Positions 9,702-33,507 of a DNA stretch of 38,470 nt are shown one piece after another. This DNA is from Ignavibacteriota bacterium (GTDB taxonomy: Bacteria > Bacteroidota > Ignavibacteria > UBA10030 > UBA6906), in the NCBI GenBank assembly GCA_016218065.1, contig JACRFA010000311.1, positions 1-38,470 of the forward strand. Direction: 5' to 3'. The notes below the pieces were generated by a model that was not told the DNA's origin, made no database searches, and saw only the letters and a program-made list of their open reading frames with translations. The translations under genes were made by a program, and so were the position numbers. The first letter of the stretch is position 1; every line of letters begins with the position of its first letter.

Positions 9702-9960
9702 AAATATTCCTTTCTTCGTTTGTTGCCCTGCGTGCCGTGATTATCCGAATCCCACCTTGCCTTTCCGTAAACGTAACCACGAGTAACCTGAACCTGTTAG
9801 AGAAACCGATTATCTCAGACCTCTCTTCCCCAAACGAGTGTTTGGCGTCCTCATCGATTCTCGCAAACGGATCGCCAAATACAGTTGTTGCCTCTCTAAA
9901 ATCGATTTTATGCTTCGCAAGATTCGAGGTGGCTTTCGCGGAATCCCATGCAAACTTCAT
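9682..9960 (-). CDS. brnT: BrnT-family toxin (DUF497, RelE-like ribonuclease)
   Basis: A 92-aa toxin of the BrnT/DUF497 family, a RelE-like fold whose characterised member is an RNase. Family signature: F-x-W-D-x-x-K-x-x-x-N-x-x-K-H at 3-17 (here F-A-W-D-S-A-K-A-T-S-N-L-A-K-H), then F-x-E-A-x-x-V-F-G-D-P, a central E-E-R-S-E-I-I-G-F, and the C-terminal R-I-I-T-A-R-R-A-T-N-E-E-R-N-I-Y. Candidate catalytic residues are the conserved Arg and Glu of the last strand and helix. A GAGGGA ribosome-binding site precedes the ATG at 9960. Type II toxin-antitoxin with the following gene. Confidence 0.9.
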   Translation of the reverse strand: MKFAWDSAKATSNLAKHKIDFREATTVFGDPFARIDEDAKHSFGEERSEIIGFSNRFRLLVVTFTERQGGIRIITARRATNEERNIYENSAF

Positions 9961-9971
9961 AGCGATCCCTC

Positions 9972-10724
9972 TTAGAACGTCCCAACAAACAACCCCGCGT
10001 TGACCATGAACCCCTTGCCGTGGATGTTGTCTGGCACGCCGAGCAGATCATAGTTGCCATCAACTCTCCATGTCGGCGAGAACATGCCCACGTAGCTTAC
10101 ACCGAGACGAACTCCAACCCAGCCGAGAATTCCGTATTCAAGATTGAGTGAAGGCACGTACACGTAGAACGAACCGTCGAACTTGCGCGTGATGTTGCTG
10201 ATCTTGCCGTTCAGATTGTAGTTTCCCGTTTCGTAGTTGCCCCATTCCTGGTTCCAGGTCAGGGCGCTGCCATCGTGCTGGCGCAGCGTGACTTCAAGTC
10301 CTCCGCCGCCGAGCATCGCGCCGACAGTGAAATCGAGTCGCTCAGCGATCGGGATGACATACTCGATCGTGACGCCGCCGAAACTCACCGCGAGTTCCGC
10401 GTCCCTGCGCACACCTGCAACAAGCGATGTGCTCGTGAGAGTGCCGTTCATTCCCAAGCCGCCAACGCGCAGATTCGGGACGAACATGATGAATGCCGCG
10501 CCGCCGATGCCGTTCATATACATGCCTTGATCTTTGAACGCTGCGCCTTTCGCGGCCAAAAGAAAATTGTTGATGGGAGCGACATCGAGAAAAAGCCAAC
10601 CGGGTGTGTAGCCAAAGAGTCCGCCGATTTTCGCGGCCTTTGAACGTTTGGGTGGAATGGGATCTTCCTGTGCTACTGCAATACACGAGACGAGCAACAA
10701 CATCATCACCAGTGCACGCTTCAT
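9972..10724 (-). CDS. Predicted outer-membrane beta-barrel protein, unknown
   Basis: 250 aa from ATG 10724, chosen over an upstream in-frame start because GGAGG sits 7-8 nt before it and a classical signal peptide (MKRALVMMLLLVSCIAVAQ) follows. The mature protein alternates glycine-rich and aromatic beta-strand segments, such as G-Y-T-P-G-W-L-F-L-D-V and V-G-V-R-L-G-V-S-Y-V-G-M-F-S, and ends in aromatic F-V-G-T-F, consistent with a small outer-membrane barrel. No named domain is recognised. It is divergent from the next outer-membrane protein. Confidence 0.75.
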   Translation of the reverse strand: MKRALVMMLLLVSCIAVAQEDPIPPKRSKAAKIGGLFGYTPGWLFLDVAPINNFLLAAKGAAFKDQGMYMNGIGGAAFIMFVPNLRVGGLGMNGTLTSTSLVAGVRRDAELAVSFGGVTIEYVIPIAERLDFTVGAMLGGGGLEVTLRQHDGSALTWNQEWGNYETGNYNLNGKISNITRKFDGSFYVYVPSLNLEYGILGWVGVRLGVSYVGMFSPTWRVDGNYDLLGVPDNIHGKGFMVNAGLFVGTF

Positions 10725-10853: not shown

Positions 10854-11720
10854 ATGCCGCTTCGATTTCTTTCGCTTCTTCTCGCTGTGTGTCTTGCAGC
10901 GACCGCATTATCTCAATCACAGTTCATTTTCATTCCGGGACAACTTGCGCTGCCTCCTCTGCGCGCATCGCTGCAAGAGCCGCGTGTCGGATTGCGGAAA
11001 GAGTTCGCAACGTCGCGTCTCAAAGTCGATATCGGCGCGTCGGTGGATATGCTTGAGTTCAGGCCGGGGCCGGACTCAACGGAACGCATGCGAGCCGGCA
11101 TCGACTTCTTCACCTACGCACTCTCGACAAACTCAGAAGGCTTGCGACTTCAAATCGATGCGGTGGACGGATATTTCGGCGGCCACATTTCGTACGTCAA
11201 TGACCTTGCTGACGACTCGCGGCTCGCCGTACGCCTCCGCCTGTTGCACGTGAGCGCCCACTTCCTCGACGGACACTACAATCTTGCGACGCAATCGTGG
11301 AAAGACGGACGAGAGCCAATTCCGTTTACGCGGGATTTTGGAGAGCTTGTTGGGGCATATACACTCGGCAGCGAGATCGAAGTGCAGTTCTATGGCGGCT
11401 TCAGCTACGCGACTCTCATCAGGCCTGTTGCGATCAAACGCGTTGAGTTTCTTGCGGGATTCGAGTTGCACTCAGACAAAATCACGGACAGCGTTTTTGA
11501 CAATCCGTTCAACATCTATCTCGCCGACCATCTCTCACTGCGCGGTATTCCGAGTTACATTGGCACGAACATCGTTGAAGCCGGTGTGAAGTTTGGAGAA
11601 TGGAACTCGACCGGGTTGCGAATCTTTCTGAGCTACTACAACGGACTCGACGTCTTCAGTCAGTATTATGACCAGCGACGCGAAAGCTGGGGCTGGGGTT
11701 TTGCGTTTGATTTTTGGTAA
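10854..11720 (+). CDS. DUF1207-like outer-membrane protein
   Basis: 288 aa from ATG 10854 (AGGA upstream; an in-frame TTG at 10830 is rejected). The signal peptide MPLRFLSLLLAVCLAATALSQ is followed by a beta-rich protein with E-P-R-V-G-L-R near the mature N-terminus and a C-terminal strand ending in G-W-G-F-A-F-D-F-W, an aromatic-terminated outer-membrane signature. The E-P-R...Y-Y-N-G...Q-Y-Y-D-Q-R-R-E layout resembles the DUF1207 family, whose function is unknown. It is probably expressed from the divergent promoter region shared with the 10724 gene. Confidence 0.75.
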   Translation: MPLRFLSLLLAVCLAATALSQSQFIFIPGQLALPPLRASLQEPRVGLRKEFATSRLKVDIGASVDMLEFRPGPDSTERMRAGIDFFTYALSTNSEGLRLQIDAVDGYFGGHISYVNDLADDSRLAVRLRLLHVSAHFLDGHYNLATQSWKDGREPIPFTRDFGELVGAYTLGSEIEVQFYGGFSYATLIRPVAIKRVEFLAGFELHSDKITDSVFDNPFNIYLADHLSLRGIPSYIGTNIVEAGVKFGEWNSTGLRIFLSYYNGLDVFSQYYDQRRESWGWGFAFDFW

Positions 11721-20274: not shown

Positions 20275-20498
20275 TGCGCTCTCCCCCCACGCAACTGCGT
20301 CTCTGATTGCGATGGCAATTCATCGGGCTTGAGCTTGGAGATGATCACGCCTCCTTCGATCAGCACAGAGTCGCCGACGCTCGCGTCGGGAACGAGGAAG
20401 AGCGACGAACGCATATAGGCGCCGCCAACTTTTATTCTTGCTTGCGCGGCAAAATCAGCCACGAAAATCTCCGTGATCTCTCCCGTCAGAAGTGTCAT
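20271..20498 (-). CDS. HypC-like protein lacking the N-terminal cysteine
   Basis: 75 aa from ATG 20498 (GAGGAG eight bases upstream; longer in-frame starts only read back through hypF). The sequence [12 protein letters not shown], then K-V-G-G-A-Y-M-R, then [16 protein letters not shown] is the HypC/HybG/HupF OB-like fold. Canonical HypC begins M-C and uses Cys2 to hold the iron unit; this protein has Thr2 and no cysteine at all. It overlaps hypF (ATGA) and hypD (GTGA), so it should be made with both. It is probably a structural or regulatory partner of HypD rather than an iron carrier (inference). Confidence 0.85.
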
Positions 20499-22840
20499 AC
20501 GCGTATCTCCTCTCGGTGCTGGTGAACTTGTAAAGTGGATTTGTGAGTTCGTAAAACAGCGTGAATCTGTCCGAGGGAAATGCCGCCGTCGTTCGGCGGT
20601 ACGCGTTGATGCCAGTATGGACGGAAGCCTGATGCCGTGAGCCGGCCGACAGTTCGTTCCGTCAGATATTTGTTTTGGAAACAACCGCCCGTGAGCACGA
20701 TCTTCTCCAACGCTGCTCGCCGGGCAATCTCGACGATGATCTCCACTAGCGTATTGTGGAATTTTGCCGCGATGACTGCCGGCGAGACATCGTGCGCCGC
20801 TTCGTCGAGCAGTTGATGGAATGCCGGCGCCCAGTCAACAATGTATTGCGCCGAGGATTGACCACTCCCGTTTCGTTGCGTGTTGTCGAGGATGTGAAAC
20901 TCGTAAGCGTCGTTCGTGGCGGTGCGTGCAATCGCGAACTCCAGCATCATCGCCGCCTGCCCTTCGAAGCTGACTTTCTGCCGCAGATTCAGGATTGACG
21001 CAACGGCATCGAAGAGGCGGCCAACGCTCGTCGTTGCCGGACAATTGATGTTCCTCTCCAGCATTTGTCTGATGAGTGCCAGCTCAGATTTCTCAAACGC
21101 AGAAACCGGATGAAGGTCACCGCGCTCAAACACATCATCACCAAATATCTCAAAGAGAACTCCGAGAGCAACTCTGCGCGGTTCCTTCACTGACTTGCTG
21201 CTTCCCGGCAACTTGAACGGGCGAAAAGTCGTCAGCCTTTCGAATGTGGAATTTTTTGGGATCAGAAACTCGCCGCCCCAGATGGTTCCGTCCAGACCGT
21301 AGCCCGTGCCATCCCATGACACGCCAAGTACCGAATCATCGATCTGATTCTCAGCCATGCACGAAAGCACATGCGCGTAGTGATGCTGAACCTGCTGCAA
21401 TTCCAGTCCCGTTCGCTTGGCAAACTGCGTCGATAAATAATCCGGATGTTCATCAGCAACGACGATTGTGGGAGTTGCATCGAACAACTTCGAGACGTTT
21501 TCTGCGACATTCAGAAACGCGTCGTACGCTTTTCCGGTTTCCAGATCGCCGATATGCTGGCTGACGAAGACGTTGGCTCCGTTCGCAATTGCAATCGCAT
21601 TCTTCTGATGAGCCCCGACTGCAAGAATGCAGCGCGACGTCGGCGGCGCGATATAATCAACCGGCAGCGGTGCGTAGCCTCGCGCCCGTCGCACAAGTTG
21701 TTCCCGTCCCAACATTACGCGCACAACCGAATCATCAACGTGACGGAGAATCGGACGATTGTGAACGAGAAAGATGTCGACGATGCCCTGCAGTCGTTGC
21801 AGCGCCTCCTCCTCATCGATGCAAATTGGCTCGTCGGTCAGATTGCCGCTCGTCGCAACAACAGGGAATTGCATCTCTCGCATCAGCACATAATGAATTC
21901 CCGTGTACGGAAGAAGGACGCCGAGATACGGATTTCCAGGCGCGACAGAATCGGCAATCATGTGGCCTGCGGAACATGATCGTTCGAGCAACACAATTGG
22001 CGATGCCGATGAGCGAAGCAACTGCTCTTCCAGTTCCGAAACGTCGCAGACGCTTCGTACTGAAGTCATGTCGGGGAACATCACAGCAAGCGGCTTCTCT
22101 TCACGATGCTTGCGTCTTCTCAGTTCGCGAACCGCTGCTTCGTTCCGCACATCGACCATCAAATGAAATCCGCCCAGCCCCTTGACCGCCGCGATCTTTC
22201 CCTCTCCGATCATGCGCGCAACAAGTTCGATTGCATCATGCCGCGAGGCAATCACCTTGCCCTCCCGATTCCAGCATTCAAGATGCGGCCCGCACTTCGG
22301 ACATGCATTCGGCTGCGCATGAAAGCGTCGGTCGGTCGGCAGTTCGTACTCGGCTCTGCAATCATCACACATCTCAAACAACTTCATCGAAGTCCGCGCT
22401 CTGTCGTACGGCAGCGAGTCGATGATGCTGTATCGCGGTCCGCAGTGAGTGCAGTTGGTAAAGGGATAGAGATAACGCCGATCTGTCGGGTTCAACATCT
22501 CCGCAAGACAATCCGGACACATGGCAAGATCGGGAAGTACAAACGCTGAGCGTTCTCCCTCCATTCTACTTTCGCGAATGACAAAGTCATGAGAGAATGC
22601 GGGATCAAGGAATGAAGACTCGATGCTTTGAATGTGTGAGTGGCGCGGACGCTCGGGTGCGAGTCGAAGGAGAAACATGTCGAGCGCGCTTCTCTCCCCT
22701 TCGGCTTCGATGACGAGACCGGTTGGCGTGTTCGCCACCCATCCGGCGAGGCGCAGTTCAGTAGCAAGCCTGTAAACGAACGGACGAAATCCGACTCCCT
22801 GCACTGCACCTTGAATCGCTATGTGCACGCGTTGAAGCAT
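20495..22840 (-). CDS. hypF: Hydrogenase maturation carbamoyltransferase HypF
   Basis: HypF converts carbamoyl phosphate and ATP to carbamoyl adenylate and passes the carbamoyl group to HypE. At 781 aa it is full length. Domains in order: acylphosphatase (about 1-90, G-A-V-Q-G-V-G-F-R-P-F-V-Y), zinc fingers (C-P-D-C, C-T-H-C, C-D-D-C, C-P-K-C, about 109-185), YrdC-like domain (K-G-L-G-G-F-H-L, about 215-390) and a Kae1-like C-terminal domain with H-H-Y-A-H. It follows hypC by 26 nt and overlaps the HypC-like gene by 4 nt. Confidence 0.96.
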   Translation of the reverse strand: MLQRVHIAIQGAVQGVGFRPFVYRLATELRLAGWVANTPTGLVIEAEGERSALDMFLLRLAPERPRHSHIQSIESSFLDPAFSHDFVIRESRMEGERSAFVLPDLAMCPDCLAEMLNPTDRRYLYPFTNCTHCGPRYSIIDSLPYDRARTSMKLFEMCDDCRAEYELPTDRRFHAQPNACPKCGPHLECWNREGKVIASRHDAIELVARMIGEGKIAAVKGLGGFHLMVDVRNEAAVRELRRRKHREEKPLAVMFPDMTSVRSVCDVSELEEQLLRSSASPIVLLERSCSAGHMIADSVAPGNPYLGVLLPYTGIHYVLMREMQFPVVATSGNLTDEPICIDEEEALQRLQGIVDIFLVHNRPILRHVDDSVVRVMLGREQLVRRARGYAPLPVDYIAPPTSRCILAVGAHQKNAIAIANGANVFVSQHIGDLETGKAYDAFLNVAENVSKLFDATPTIVVADEHPDYLSTQFAKRTGLELQQVQHHYAHVLSCMAENQIDDSVLGVSWDGTGYGLDGTIWGGEFLIPKNSTFERLTTFRPFKLPGSSKSVKEPRRVALGVLFEIFGDDVFERGDLHPVSAFEKSELALIRQMLERNINCPATTSVGRLFDAVASILNLRQKVSFEGQAAMMLEFAIARTATNDAYEFHILDNTQRNGSGQSSAQYIVDWAPAFHQLLDEAAHDVSPAVIAAKFHNTLVEIIVEIARRAALEKIVLTGGCFQNKYLTERTVGRLTASGFRPYWHQRVPPNDGGISLGQIHAVLRTHKSTLQVHQHREEIRV

Positions 22841-22866
22841 TCAGGCAAAAATCGCTTCGATGATGT

Positions 22867-23145
22867 CTAAGATGGTCGTTGCGGCGTAGAATCATCGTCG
22901 GGCTGTTGAAGACCTTCAAGCTCTCCCATCTCTTTGAGGTACTCGAAAACCTTCGCAGCTTCTTCTTCATCCACCTTACTGATTGCAAATCCGACATGAA
23001 CAAGCACGTAATCTCCCACCATCACTTCGGGCACGTACGCAAGACACACCTGTTTCAGGATGCCGCCGAAATTCACTTTCCCCATATTCATCCCCACGCT
23101 GCTTTCCTCGATTGAGACTACCCTGCCCGGGACGGCTAGACACAT
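22867..23145 (-). CDS. hypC: Hydrogenase assembly chaperone HypC
   Basis: Chaperone that carries the Fe(CN)2CO unit with HypD and binds the large-subunit precursor. 92 aa, with the defining MCLAVPGRV start (Cys2 present), then G-K-V-N-F-G-G and a D-Y-V-L-V-H-V-G-F-A-I-S-K-V core. A C-terminal tail of about 15 residues rich in Asp, Gln and Pro extends past the usual length. AGGAG precedes the ATG at 23145. It is the first gene of the maturation operon; its promoter should lie just upstream, beside the hairpin-rich region. Confidence 0.95.
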   Translation of the reverse strand: MCLAVPGRVVSIEESSVGMNMGKVNFGGILKQVCLAYVPEVMVGDYVLVHVGFAISKVDEEEAAKVFEYLKEMGELEGLQQPDDDSTPQRPS

Positions 23146-24308
23146 GGAAACTCCTGATATGAGAGTCTAAGTGTGATTGCGTACCTAAAGGTCAACTAAC
23201 ATGCCACGAAAATCCAACCAGAAGCTGAGGAAATTGCTCAACGAGACTAAGCTTTGTCGGAATTGGGAAAATTCAAAGCGGAGCGTTCTCACTTTTAAGA
23301 AGTGAGATGCTGCACCAACGATAAGAGAAAGATCGGAATGTGAGAGATGAGCGGCCGCGTAGAGAACCACTTCACACGGCACGCGGCATCACGAGGAAAC
23401 GTCACAACGTAATCTAACAAACTTTCAGACTGTTGCAAGGGGAGGAATGGTGGAGATTCCCCATCGAAACTGCCTAAGAACTGTCTTTCTGAGGGAATTG
23501 AAAGGCGTTGCCTTTATTGTTCATCGCCGTGACATCAGTGCTTCACGTTTCGTCTCGTCACTTCGTGACGATTGGGTGACCGGGCTATTGCGCAGACCAT
23601 AAGTGGTCTGCCTAATATCATGCCGTCCCTACGGGACAGCCGTGCATGCAAGCTTGCCACGTAGTGGCAAATCAAAATTAGCCCGACCTTTCAAGGTCGG
23701 GTTAGATTGATGTACACGACCCGTCCGTCGCGTAGCGACGGAACGAATAGTTGATACACGCATGAAGGATCATGTCAATAGCAGCCTCGCTTTGCAGAGG
23801 CGCCATGCCTGCCGGTCTACGACTCATAGAGCAGGCAGGAAGAATCCAGAAACCCGTACTGGATTCTCCCAAGGGGATGCCTGCGAAGCGGCATTCACTC
23901 CGTCCCGACTTGGGAAGCAGTCGGTCCCGACACCGTCGGGACAGAATGACAATCAAAAGATGTGGAGATGATTTTCAAGCGTTTTCGGGAATCTCCACGA
24001 GGAGTGAAGGGATTGGAGATTGGGGTTCGTCCTCGGTCGTCTGTCTTTTCTGGGCCACAAGCGGGTCTTCCTCGTCAGTGCGGAATTGCATGGCGCGTAG
24101 CGGATCAGTCAACCTCGGCGCAAAGAGTATCGCCCTGCCTCGCCGCAGTCCGGCCTTGTCCCGGCAGAGGATTCGGCTAAACTTAGAGCGACTCTGCGAG
24201 TCGCTCAACAGGTTAGGAATTCACAATTAGCAGTTCACCATTAAGAACTGCTTTTCAAAGGGAATGATCAATGGTGAATGCTGAATGGACAACGACAGCA
24301 TGACGCGC
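23146..24308. other. 1.16-kb non-coding spacer between the hydrogenase and hyp operons
   Basis: No convincing gene. Short ORFs here have no recognisable protein features and cross the hairpins. It holds a hairpin at 23287-23307 (TCTCACTT/AAGTGAGA, loop TTAAG), the hairpin array at 23501-24206, and AGCAGTTC/GAACTGCT at 24228-24252. Near 24220-24290 there are degenerate direct copies of a 'ttcaccatt/aatggtgaa' word. Confidence 0.75.
23501..24206. repeat. Array of at least ten short hairpins with unrelated stems
   Basis: Near-perfect stems with mostly 3-nt loops: 23501-23515 (AAAGGC, loop GTT), 23555-23571 (TCGTCAC, TTC), 23592-23611 (GCAGACCA, TAAG), 23625-23637 (GTCCC, TAC), 23654-23670 (TTGCCAC, GTA), 23682-23701 (CCCGACCT, TTCA), 23724-23742 (TCCGTCGC, GTA), 23784-23801 (GCCTC plus inner GC), 23841-23867 (AGAATCCAG, 9-nt loop), 23877-23894 (ATGCC plus inner GC), 23924-23942 (GTCCCGAC, ACC), 24186-24206 (GAGCGACTC, TGC). 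Stem sequences differ, so this is not one repeated unit; the form is what repeats. Confidence 0.8.
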
Positions 24309-24845
24309 CTACAGCCGAAGTCCGTGCGACTCAGATCCGAGCGTGAACACTTCGATGTCGTGCTCGATTCGATGAAGAAGATCGGGCACGCTTCGCACGA
24401 CTGACTCCGACAAGCCAACGCCTAGCTCGATGGATTCCGCTTCGATGCCGTACACCATCAGCGTTCGCGGAAGTTCATTCAGCTCGCGAGAAAGCTCAAT
24501 TGCCTCGCACACGCCGAAGAGATGACTCGACGAGCGGAGAAATCCTTTTTGCAATCGAGTCGTGTGGGCATTCACGCAATGCACCGTGCCGGGCTGGCAA
24601 CCTGACACAACAGCATCGATGACAAACACATGGTGAGCTGTGCGCCAGAGCGATATCAACGCAGTTCCTTCTCCGCTCTGCTCGGCAATGCGGACGCTGT
24701 TTGCGAGCCGGGCGCCGAGGTGGCGCACAACGTACAAACCAACACCGTCGTCTGTCCGCATTTCATTGCCGATGCCGATCACCAGCGGAACGGCCAACTC
24801 GCCGTTCCGCGGTTTCTTCTCAGAAAACTTCGTCCCCTCATTCAT
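24309..24845 (-). CDS. [NiFe] hydrogenase maturation endopeptidase
   Basis: HyaD/HycI-type protease that removes the large-subunit C-terminal peptide after nickel insertion. The ATG at 24845 (GGAGG nine bases upstream) gives 178 aa; an in-frame ATG at 24872 is less well placed. Motifs: G-I-G-N-E-M-R-T-D-D-G-V-G (about 24-36) with the metal-binding acidic residue, V-I-D-A-V (about 84-88), and H-L-F-G-V (about 118-122) with the histidine ligand. It lies 47 nt after hydA, its expected substrate. It is the last gene of the hydrogenase operon. Confidence 0.92.
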   Translation of the reverse strand: MNEGTKFSEKKPRNGELAVPLVIGIGNEMRTDDGVGLYVVRHLGARLANSVRIAEQSGEGTALISLWRTAHHVFVIDAVVSGCQPGTVHCVNAHTTRLQKGFLRSSSHLFGVCEAIELSRELNELPRTLMVYGIEAESIELGVGLSESVVRSVPDLLHRIEHDIEVFTLGSESHGLRL

Positions 24846-24892
24846 CGTAGTGATCCTCCAGATGTTGAACATCCGAGATCAGTTGCGCGCCA

Positions 24893-26176
24893 TCAGTCGA
24901 TCTCAAGTCGAACGAAGTGAGTTGCACAGGAAATACACGGATCGTAATTCCTGACTGCTTGTTCAACTTTCCACGTGAGCGCCTCGCGTGGCAAATCGAT
25001 GTTTGCAGTAACGAACTGACGGAGATCGTTCTCGATCGTCGGCTGGTTCTGCGCCGTCGGAGGCACGATCTTCGCGTCGAGAATTGTTCCGTCGCTTCCG
25101 AGTCTGTAGCGATGATAGAGCGTACCGCGTGGCGCCTCGCTCGCGCCGAACCCGATGCCGGCTTGTACCTCATAATGTACTGTCGGCGATTCAGGCTCTT
25201 CATACTGTTCGATGATCCGAATCGCTTCGTCGTACGCGTAGATGGTTTCGATCGCCCGCACCACGATGCTCTTGAACGGATTCTTCACCATCGGACGTAA
25301 GCCGATCTCGTTCGCCACCTGTTTTGCAATCGGCGAGAGAAAATCGAAGTTGAGATTGAACCGCGCCAGCGGCCCGACGTGGTAGGCGCCCTTCCCCTTC
25401 TCAATCGAATGCAACGCATGCGAGTGATGCACATGACGCTCCTCGAAGTGGAACTCGTACTCGCGGATGGCGATGTCGAGTCCGCTGTTGGAGACAAACC
25501 TTCCACCGATGATCGGGTATTCATCCGGCGAACGCAGCGACACGAATTCGTACTCAAGCTCGAAAGGCGGAAACTCAAACGTGTTGACGAGCTTCGCAGT
25601 TTCAATCGCCTGATCGCGTGCCCACTTCAGCCGGTCGAGCAGCGGCGTAAGCTCGCTCTTTGCCGGCACCCGGTAGAAGCCGCCGACCCTCACATTAATC
25701 GGGTGAATCTCGCGACCTCCAATAACAATCATGACATCGTTCCCGATCTTCTTCATTTGCAGCGCGGTCTTCACCAACTCGGGTTTGTCCTTCGCCAGCT
25801 GGAGCGCATCTTCGTATCCAAGAAAATCCGGCGCATGCAGCATGTACATGTGAAGCACGTGACTTTCAATCCACTCGCCGCAATAGATCAATCTGCGCAA
25901 TGCAGCAAGTTGGCCCGTCACTTCAACGCCGAACGCATCTTCCATCGCGGTCACGGAACTCATTTGATACGCGATGGGACAGATACCGCAAATACGCGCG
26001 GTGATGTCCGGCGCCTCGGCATAGCTGCGTCCGCGAAGGAACGCTTCGAAGAATCTCGGCGGCTCATAGATCTTCAGCTTCACGTCAGCAACTTTGCCGT
26101 CGGCGATCTTGACGAAGAGCGATCCTTCGCCCTCGACGCGGGCAAGCTGGTCAACCTTGATGATTCTATTTTTCAT
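24893..26176 (-). CDS. hydA: Group 3b [NiFe] hydrogenase large (alpha) subunit
   Basis: Catalytic subunit holding the NiFe(CN)2CO centre of a cytoplasmic, bidirectional NADP-linked hydrogenase (the sulfhydrogenase type). The ATG at 26176 gives 427 aa; GTG 26185 and ATG 26182 are nearby alternatives behind the same AAGGAG. The N-terminal nickel motif is R-I-C-G-I-C-P (Cys63, Cys66) and the C-terminal one D-P-C-I-S-C-A-T-H (Cys414, Cys417, His420). Seven residues follow His420 and should be cut off by the next gene's product. The form of these motifs places it in group 3b. The start overlaps the end of hydD by 11 nt. Confidence 0.95.
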
Positions 26177-30045: not shown

Positions 30046-30112
30046 CCTGCCTGACGGCAGGCAGGCGCCAAGGCTCCTCCAAAGGAGTCCCTTCGGGACA
30101 GGACGCCAAGGC
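30046..30112. repeat. Cluster of three short hairpins flanked by a 9-nt direct repeat
   Basis: CCTGCCTG/CAGGCAGG with loop ACGG (30046-30065); GGCTCCT paired with AGGAGTC around CCAA (30072-30089, one G-U); GTCCC/GGGAC with loop TTC (30087-30099). The last two overlap. CGCCAAGGC occurs at 30066-30074 and 30104-30112. GTCCC...GGGAC and CCTGCC...GGCAGG words recur in the 23.5-24.2 kb array, so the two regions share an element type. Confidence 0.65.
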
Positions 30113-33454: not shown

Positions 33455-33507
33455 TGTAGAGCGACGAGGCTCGTCGCTCTACACACCCGGCACGACGAGA
33501 GTCGTCG
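33455..33507. repeat. Long palindrome followed by a second, related hairpin
   Basis: TGTAGAGCGACGAG (33455-33468) and CTCGTCGCTCTACA (33470-33483) form a 14-nt perfect inverted repeat around one base. Directly after, CGACGA/TCGTCG (33493-33507, loop GAG) repeats the core, and TCGTCGCTCTAC occurs again at 33502-33513. It lies between the ferredoxin stop and the nth start, so it may act as a terminator for the ferredoxin, though no T-run is present. Confidence 0.7.

Follow-up and report, generated by a model that had tools for sequence, protein, structure and literature searches.

An ordered ladder of hairpins dispersed in an Ignavibacteriota genome, with relatives beside Y1 transposase genes

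An intergenic region of an Ignavibacteriota genome carries an ordered ladder of hairpins that recurs at about 33 loci of the same genome, and relatives of this ladder in other genomes adjoin genes for Y1 HuH transposases. We consider it likely that the ladder is a dispersed, non-coding, REPIN-like element, non-autonomous and mobilised by a Y1 transposase of subclass 1.2. Observed in support of this reading are the dispersal, the conserved order and stems, the inverted symmetry, an empty site in a second repeat (family B), adjacency to Y1 genes, hairpin enrichment and a loop grammar; recognition and mobilisation by the enzyme are what we infer.

The hairpin region and the family A repeat

The window, i.e., the whole stretch of DNA that was analysed, is 38,470 nt long and belongs to a genome assembly of 5.17 Mb in 319 contigs. 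Positions 23501-24206 hold 10, 8, 7 and 5 perfect stems of at least 5, 6, 7 and 8 bp, respectively, with loops of 3-4 nt (Table 1). Across 500 dinucleotide shuffles of the region the corresponding means were 1.42, 0.39, 0.10 and 0.03 and the maxima 6, 3, 2 and 2, and the region folded better than its shuffles both as DNA (z-score -5.6) and as RNA (z-score -6.1). Stem counts and folding scores together exclude chance, and the observation made in a preliminary description, of at least ten short stems, mostly with 3-nt loops, within about 700 nt, is therefore real. Its placement of the ladder between hydrogenase and hyp operons agrees with the flanking genes, which are HypC/HypF on one side (minus strand, 20495-23145) and, on the other, a hydrogenase maturation protease and NiFe hydrogenase genes (minus strand, from 24309). 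The closest matches of HypF, at 51-59% identity, come from Bacteroidota, Ignavibacteria, Calditrichota and other MAGs, and point to a probable Bacteroidota/Ignavibacteria-like bacterium as host. A density scan, as suggested in that description, gave values far above chance: over 692 kb of this genome, stems of at least 7 bp with a 3-4 nt loop occurred at 10.0 per kb in loci of family A (the ladder), 2.2 per kb in loci of family B and 0.25 per kb elsewhere, against about 0.12 per kb in shuffled sequence. Rfam gave nothing at gathering thresholds in 22900-24900, the best E-values (0.29 and 0.48) falling far short of the cut-offs.

Table 1. Features of the hairpin region, with window positions and perfect stems
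Feature	Position	Strand	Perfect stem	Basis or remark
Family B, left part, beginning with terminal inverted repeat TGGAGATTCCC	23451-23493	+		Alignment to B copies without insert
Family A element (hairpin ladder), 291 bp	23494-23784	+		Inserted in B at TTCTGAG^CCTCGC; empty-site comparison with L019, L036, L037, L042; covariance-model loci
Hairpin AAAGGC-GTT-GCCTTT	23501-23515		6-9 bp	Near left end, young A copies only
H1, TCGTCAC-TTC-GTGACGA	23555-23571		6-9 bp	Family consensus loop TAC
H2, GCAGACCA-TAAG-TGGTCTGC	23592-23611		6-9 bp	Family loop TAAA/TGAA
H3, GTCCC-TAC-GGGAC	23625-23637		5 bp	Hairpin of aligned A copies
H4, TTGCCAC-GTA-GTGGCAA	23654-23670		6-9 bp	Inverted counterpart of H3
H5, CCCGACCT-TTCA-AGGTCGGG	23680-23703		6-9 bp (23682-23701)	Inverted counterpart of H2; additional hairpins expand the loop elsewhere in the family
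H6, TCCGTCGC-GTA-GCGACGGA	23724-23742		6-9 bp	Inverted counterpart of H1
Family B, right part, ending with terminal inverted repeat GGGAATCTCCA	23785-23997	+		60 genome matches; copy alignment
Hairpins CCTC../GAGG, CCTGCC..GGCAGG and ATGCC..GGCAT	within 23785-23997			In right B part
Hairpin GTCCCGAC-ACC-GTCGGGAC	23924-23942		6-9 bp	In right B part
Block C	24046-24151			Third dispersed block, weakly conserved, outside the ladder; no fold or gene assigned
Single hairpin GAGCGACTC-TGC-GAGTCGCTC	24186-24206		6-9 bp	Outside A and B; no repeat assigned

The core of the 291-bp family A repeat is formed by six hairpins (H1-H6, 23555-23742), the order of which is fixed across 19 aligned copies. In a side-by-side comparison, H1-H2-H3 resembles the reverse complement of H4-H5-H6, and a family A profile matches most full copies on the opposite strand as well (E from 2e-16 to 1e-12). 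Because of these two observations, a family A copy is, on sequence grounds, an inverted pair of three-hairpin modules of which the second has diverged, a REPIN layout with a larger unit.

Searching the region against its own genome gave 53 matches, and a covariance model built on three hairpins (H1-H3) gave 57, which merged into about 33 loci. Across 19 copies, stems are 94% identical, loops 89% and spacers 60%; the 8 most divergent copies give 90%, 85% and 55%. Old copies, including L021, L023, L024, L025, L026, L168 and L176, have unrelated flanks without B, which together with the stem identity indicates that the stems were kept while the remainder drifted. The preliminary description had argued from the differing stems that selection or a generating mechanism acts on form. 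Form is indeed kept, but the stems are not arbitrary, as the same ordered sequences stand at about 33 loci. It had also held that the region is neither a tandem repeat nor a CRISPR array. We ruled out both, since the hairpins differ within one copy and there are no identical repeats with unique spacers; the ladder is still a dispersed repeat, as its genome matches show.

Decay of the stems, a prospect raised in the same description, was not seen, and the compensatory changes it had looked to amount to one base pair, in H2, that changed from A-T to G-C in 3 copies (3 cells of 346). Shuffles reached this number of pairs in 208 of 500 trials; thus covariation adds little, the conservation is one of sequence, and we discarded the argument that compensatory changes prove an RNA. 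For old copies, a terminal inverted repeat of 16 bp (TAACTGATGTTACGCA) was not established either, with 18 matches against 9 in a reversed control. The exact signature pattern of the family had 0 matches in the GTDB species genomes, its own genome left out, and in viral contigs. Ladder copies lie between tandem genes in 12 cases, divergent genes in 8 and convergent genes in 2, and some family A copies stand at contig ends, those of C72, C154 and C194 among them.

Family B occupies 23451-23997 here and is about 190 bp long when uninterrupted. It is MITE-like, with 11-bp terminal inverted repeats (TGGAGATTCCC...GGGAATCTCCA), it has 60 genome matches, and it occurs at about 50 places besides the window. 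Copies also have an inner pair (GTCATTCTGA/CAGAATGAC) and optional small hairpin inserts. Four B copies (L019, L036, L037 and L042) show the empty site, reading TTCTGAG-CCTCGC (one with TCTCGC), and the window and L010 carry the 291-bp insert (23494-23784) at that junction, with at most a possible AG as target duplication. Because the two filled sites have the junction in common, they may represent one insertion of A that was later copied with B. Wherever the flank of a young A copy is recognisable, the copy occupies this junction within a B-like repeat, and some young copies may therefore have spread as passengers.

Several other hairpins and repeats were noted. The copy at L017 (G000:C150, 9746-9893) has about 147 bp extra inside the H5 loop. 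Two hairpins of the window had been likened to the ladder in the preliminary description: the one at 2598-2620 turned out to be single-copy apart from a 30-bp match, and that at 30046-30099 is no ladder, although 27 bp of it are also found, without any difference, in H5 of old copies. This piece (30074-30100), which equals the inner CTCCAAAGGAGTCCCTTCGGGACA piece of the enlarged H5 loop of old copies, may represent a small mobile hairpin unit of its own. A single perfect 13-bp hairpin, TGTAGAGCGACGA-GGC-TCGTCGCTCTACA, lies between genes at 33455-33483. Block C also occurs at about 10 other loci with 68-86% identity, and its reading frame is not consistent.

Relatives of the ladder and adjoining Y1 genes

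Elsewhere, the H1-H3 covariance model gave 5 matches in a genome of the same genus and 12 in one that belongs to the order but to a different family, and in both genomes the ladder adjoins a Y1 gene. The model had no match in 18 genomes of the same family outside the genus. All model matches in other genomes were grouped into 29 loci, the positions of which we compared with the listed Y1 genes. A Y1 gene lies within about 1 kb of at least 11 of the 29 loci (G001:C31, G055:C16, G036:C74, G036:C105, G059:C162, G037:C42, G053:C47, G041:C51, G028:C49, G027:C17 and G021:C17), whereas random placement would give about 0.1 adjacent loci on the basis of about 5 Y1 genes per 3.4 Mb. Several of the 11 matches are individually weak (E 1e-4 to 0.05) and are credible because a Y1 gene adjoins them. 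A CRISPR reading of the weak multi-point matches at G028:C49 and G037:C42 was dropped, both contigs having a nearby Y1 gene. The ladder at G055:C16 (L162) flanks its Y1 gene (product MAHTYACLYFHIVFGTKYRRPW...) on both sides and that at G001:C31 (L163) lies directly upstream of its gene (product MANTYTSLHYHIVFSTKRREPY...), in both cases without B.

The adjoining genes encode Y1 HuH transposases of the IS200 type (PF01797; NF033573 above cut-off), and their products match solved TnpA structures, including that of IS608 (2vhg). The proteins carry the motifs Y...Q..HH and WQ, a signature by which they are assigned to TnpA_Y1 subclass 1.2 as defined in Quentin 2018 (PMC6006769). That paper describes the subclass as proteins of about 150 aa from Bacteroidetes and cyanobacteria, with low copy number, no REPs listed and 'generally without typical terminal IS200 secondary structure features'; in the genomes studied here, hairpin ladders stand beside many such genes. 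Since relatives of the ladder adjoin a Y1 transposase gene, the ladder is probably what the enzyme recognises and moves.

In the assembly of this genome, family A has no adjoining Y1 gene. Two Y1 genes are present, each with a different four-hairpin ladder that is confined to its own flanks, barring one 28-bp match, and the DNA around family A copies showed no Y1 gene remnants apart from these two genes. The cognate enzyme of family A may have been lost, or it may be hidden at a contig break. Dispersal varies between genomes: ladders in G025 are in tandem beside the gene only, and G055 and G047 have some copies elsewhere. One of the two Y1 genes of this genome (L178, G000:C106) lies between two direct copies of another four-hairpin ladder (1099-1230 and 1682-1809), which was found on that contig only, with a third, partial match of 33 bp (C106:463-495).

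Possible mechanism and alternative explanations

In the mechanism that we favour, the subclass-1.2 transposase would bind hairpins folded in single-stranded DNA, such as the lagging-strand template, and would cut and rejoin near the ladder ends. Ladder copies or modules could then spread or amplify in trans, as has been proposed for TnpA_REP and REPs, and stem sequences and loop types would be kept because the enzyme reads them. In the window, one copy either inserted into repeat B or arrived with it, between the hydrogenase and hyp genes; such an enzyme would be the presumptive mover of this copy, and the lagging strand its presumptive preference. A protein-binding platform, one of several options in the preliminary description, fits this explanation, in which binding is predicted.

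Template switching is expected to yield short, perfect inverted repeats with 3-nt loops, and a by-product of this process was another option in the preliminary description; such a by-product would be without function. One ordered set of stems is found at about 33 loci, with relatives in a second family of the order; together with the one double-sided pair, this recurrence means that sequence is kept besides form and that template switching is not the source, a reading we consider refuted. A different possibility is that the ladder travelled as a passenger of B, or of the B core (GTCATTCTGAG...CAGAATGAC), through the action of an unrelated transposase, with Y1 not involved in this copy. The common B-like junction of young A copies would fit, as would the 11-bp terminal inverted repeats of B, which are typical of MITEs; however, the old A copies have unrelated flanks without B, and the G001 and G055 ladders adjoin Y1 genes without B. 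We regard passenger transport as unlikely, and it can hold for the last move of the window copy without refuting a Y1-linked origin.

The mRNAs of IS200-type transposases are restrained by hairpins, and the ladders might likewise be cis-acting RNA, serving as attenuators or mRNA-stability hairpins for the transposase gene and, at other loci, for adjacent genes. Terminator-like scores were indeed obtained for H5 (minus strand) and for the hairpin at 23501-23515. Ladders nevertheless occur on both sides of the gene and are nearly symmetric between strands, in this genome they are mostly away from Y1 genes, the T tract is not consistent, convergent gene ends are not favoured, and Rfam had no match at its thresholds. 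Positive support was thus not found for the RNA structure or transcription barrier of the preliminary description, and we judge a cis-acting RNA to be quite improbable. Still less credible is a role in host architecture, in which the ladders would bind a host protein (as nucleoid, gyrase or replication barrier sites) and be kept for that. The strong stem conservation would be compatible with such a role, and in E. coli IHF, Pol I and gyrase are bound by REPs (PMC6006769). But neither the exact signature in other species genomes and viral contigs nor the model in the 18 same-family genomes outside the genus had a match, a restricted distribution that is unlike a host function, and the Y1 genes examined have their own ladder each.

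Hairpins beside subclass-1.2 genes and known systems

Flanks were sampled by gene motif, not by hairpins, from 42 subclass-1.2 genes of the order, with class-2 genes as control; the loci came mostly from the best-scoring Pfam matches, a possible bias to typical members. The 400-bp flanks of the 42 genes contained 5.44 perfect hairpins per kb (0.85 in shuffled sequence), and those of 15 class-2 Y1 genes 1.73 per kb (0.72 shuffled). At least four flank hairpins were found beside 20 of the 42 subclass-1.2 genes and none of the 15 class-2 genes, about half of the subclass-1.2 genes having fewer than four. A wider phylum sample (19 genes) gave 4.67 hairpins per kb against 1.18 shuffled. A direct repeat of at least 30 bp was common to both flanks in 23 of the 42, and every Y1 gene examined individually had its own ladder with its own stems.

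TNNA tetraloops or C(GNA)G / C(TNC)G triloops made up 123 of 202 flank hairpins (61%), compared with 8 of 147 in the background (5%), and all six family A consensus loops (TAC, TAAA, TAC, GTA, TTCA and GTA) fit this grammar. The wider phylum sample had a similar share of triloops and fewer TNNA loops, with 27 of 71 hairpins carrying grammar loops altogether. GNA minihairpins of the GCGAAGC type are unusually stable DNA hairpins; the GNA-type loops would therefore point to single-stranded DNA, and not RNA, as the form that matters. A GTAG/GTGG guide was not enriched 0-2 nt 5' of the foot (2 against 3.2 expected and 1 against 4.0, for 406 feet on both strands).

For the group as a whole, the balance tips slightly towards Y1 subclass 1.2 being a separate REPtron-like system, whose recognition element would be an ordered ladder of different hairpins with a T-N-N-A tetraloop / C-GNA-G triloop code, and in which each enzyme would have its own stem set and move modules in trans. 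If so, a large and poorly understood HuH group would gain a candidate DNA substrate, testable with oligonucleotides; many hairpin-rich intergenic regions of the phylum would be explained as likely footprints of single-strand transposition; and an element recognised through several hairpins would broaden the present view of IS200/REP recognition, in which one hairpin is read.

Compared with the REPs, BIMEs and REPINs and the REPtrons formed with TnpA_REP (RAYT), as portrayed in PMC6006769, PMC8266576 and PMC3116915, the ladders likewise consist of small palindromes scattered through intergenic regions. At G001:C31 and G055:C16, related ladders border a Y1 HuH transposase gene of low copy number, family A copies are dispersed away from the gene, the related palindromic units of family A are in inverted orientation, as in the inverted dimer of a REPIN, and element families are species-specific. 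The differences are that a REP unit is one palindrome of 20-40 nt, whereas here 3-4 different hairpins in a set order make up the unit, and six the inverted dimer; that REPs have GTAG/GTGG at the hairpin feet, which the ladders lack; that the REPtron transposase is of class 2 (Y...NP) and the enzymes beside ladders are of subclass 1.2 (Y...Q..HH); and that REP copies number hundreds, against about 33 loci of family A. The TnpAs of IS200/IS605 elements (subclass 1.1, IS608, ISDra2) are the closest solved transposases, NF033573 fits, and hairpins adjoin the gene. The A insertion, which may represent a single event, may also resemble theirs in lacking a long target duplication. Unlike the ladders, however, these elements have one subterminal hairpin per end and consist of the gene plus its ends, whereas family A in this genome is without a gene, and gene copies here are few while the ladder is dispersed or tandemly repeated. 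The 'atypical secondary structures' of TnpA_Y1 subclass 2.6 and class 3 in excerpts of PMC6006769 are likewise non-canonical gene-side hairpins with copies elsewhere, but those proteins (Y...NP and Y....Q) differ from the Y...Q..HH enzymes, and ordered multi-hairpin modules and the loop types found here are absent from the excerpted description.

In the full-text literature outside subscription journals, no description was found that couples ordered hairpin ladders to subclass 1.2, which does not prove priority.

Tandem arrangements were seen at two further loci. An array of the hairpin pair GGGCGATTCGCCGAATCGCCC / GGTCGAGACAGCGTCTCGACC, spaced at about 125-155 bp, occupies 9750-10100, 11430-11640 and 16160-16400 of L047 (G000:C1), a contig with no Y1 gene. 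At L198 (G012:C423), positions 1000-1450, about four three-hairpin units stand in tandem upstream of a Y1 subclass-1.2 gene.
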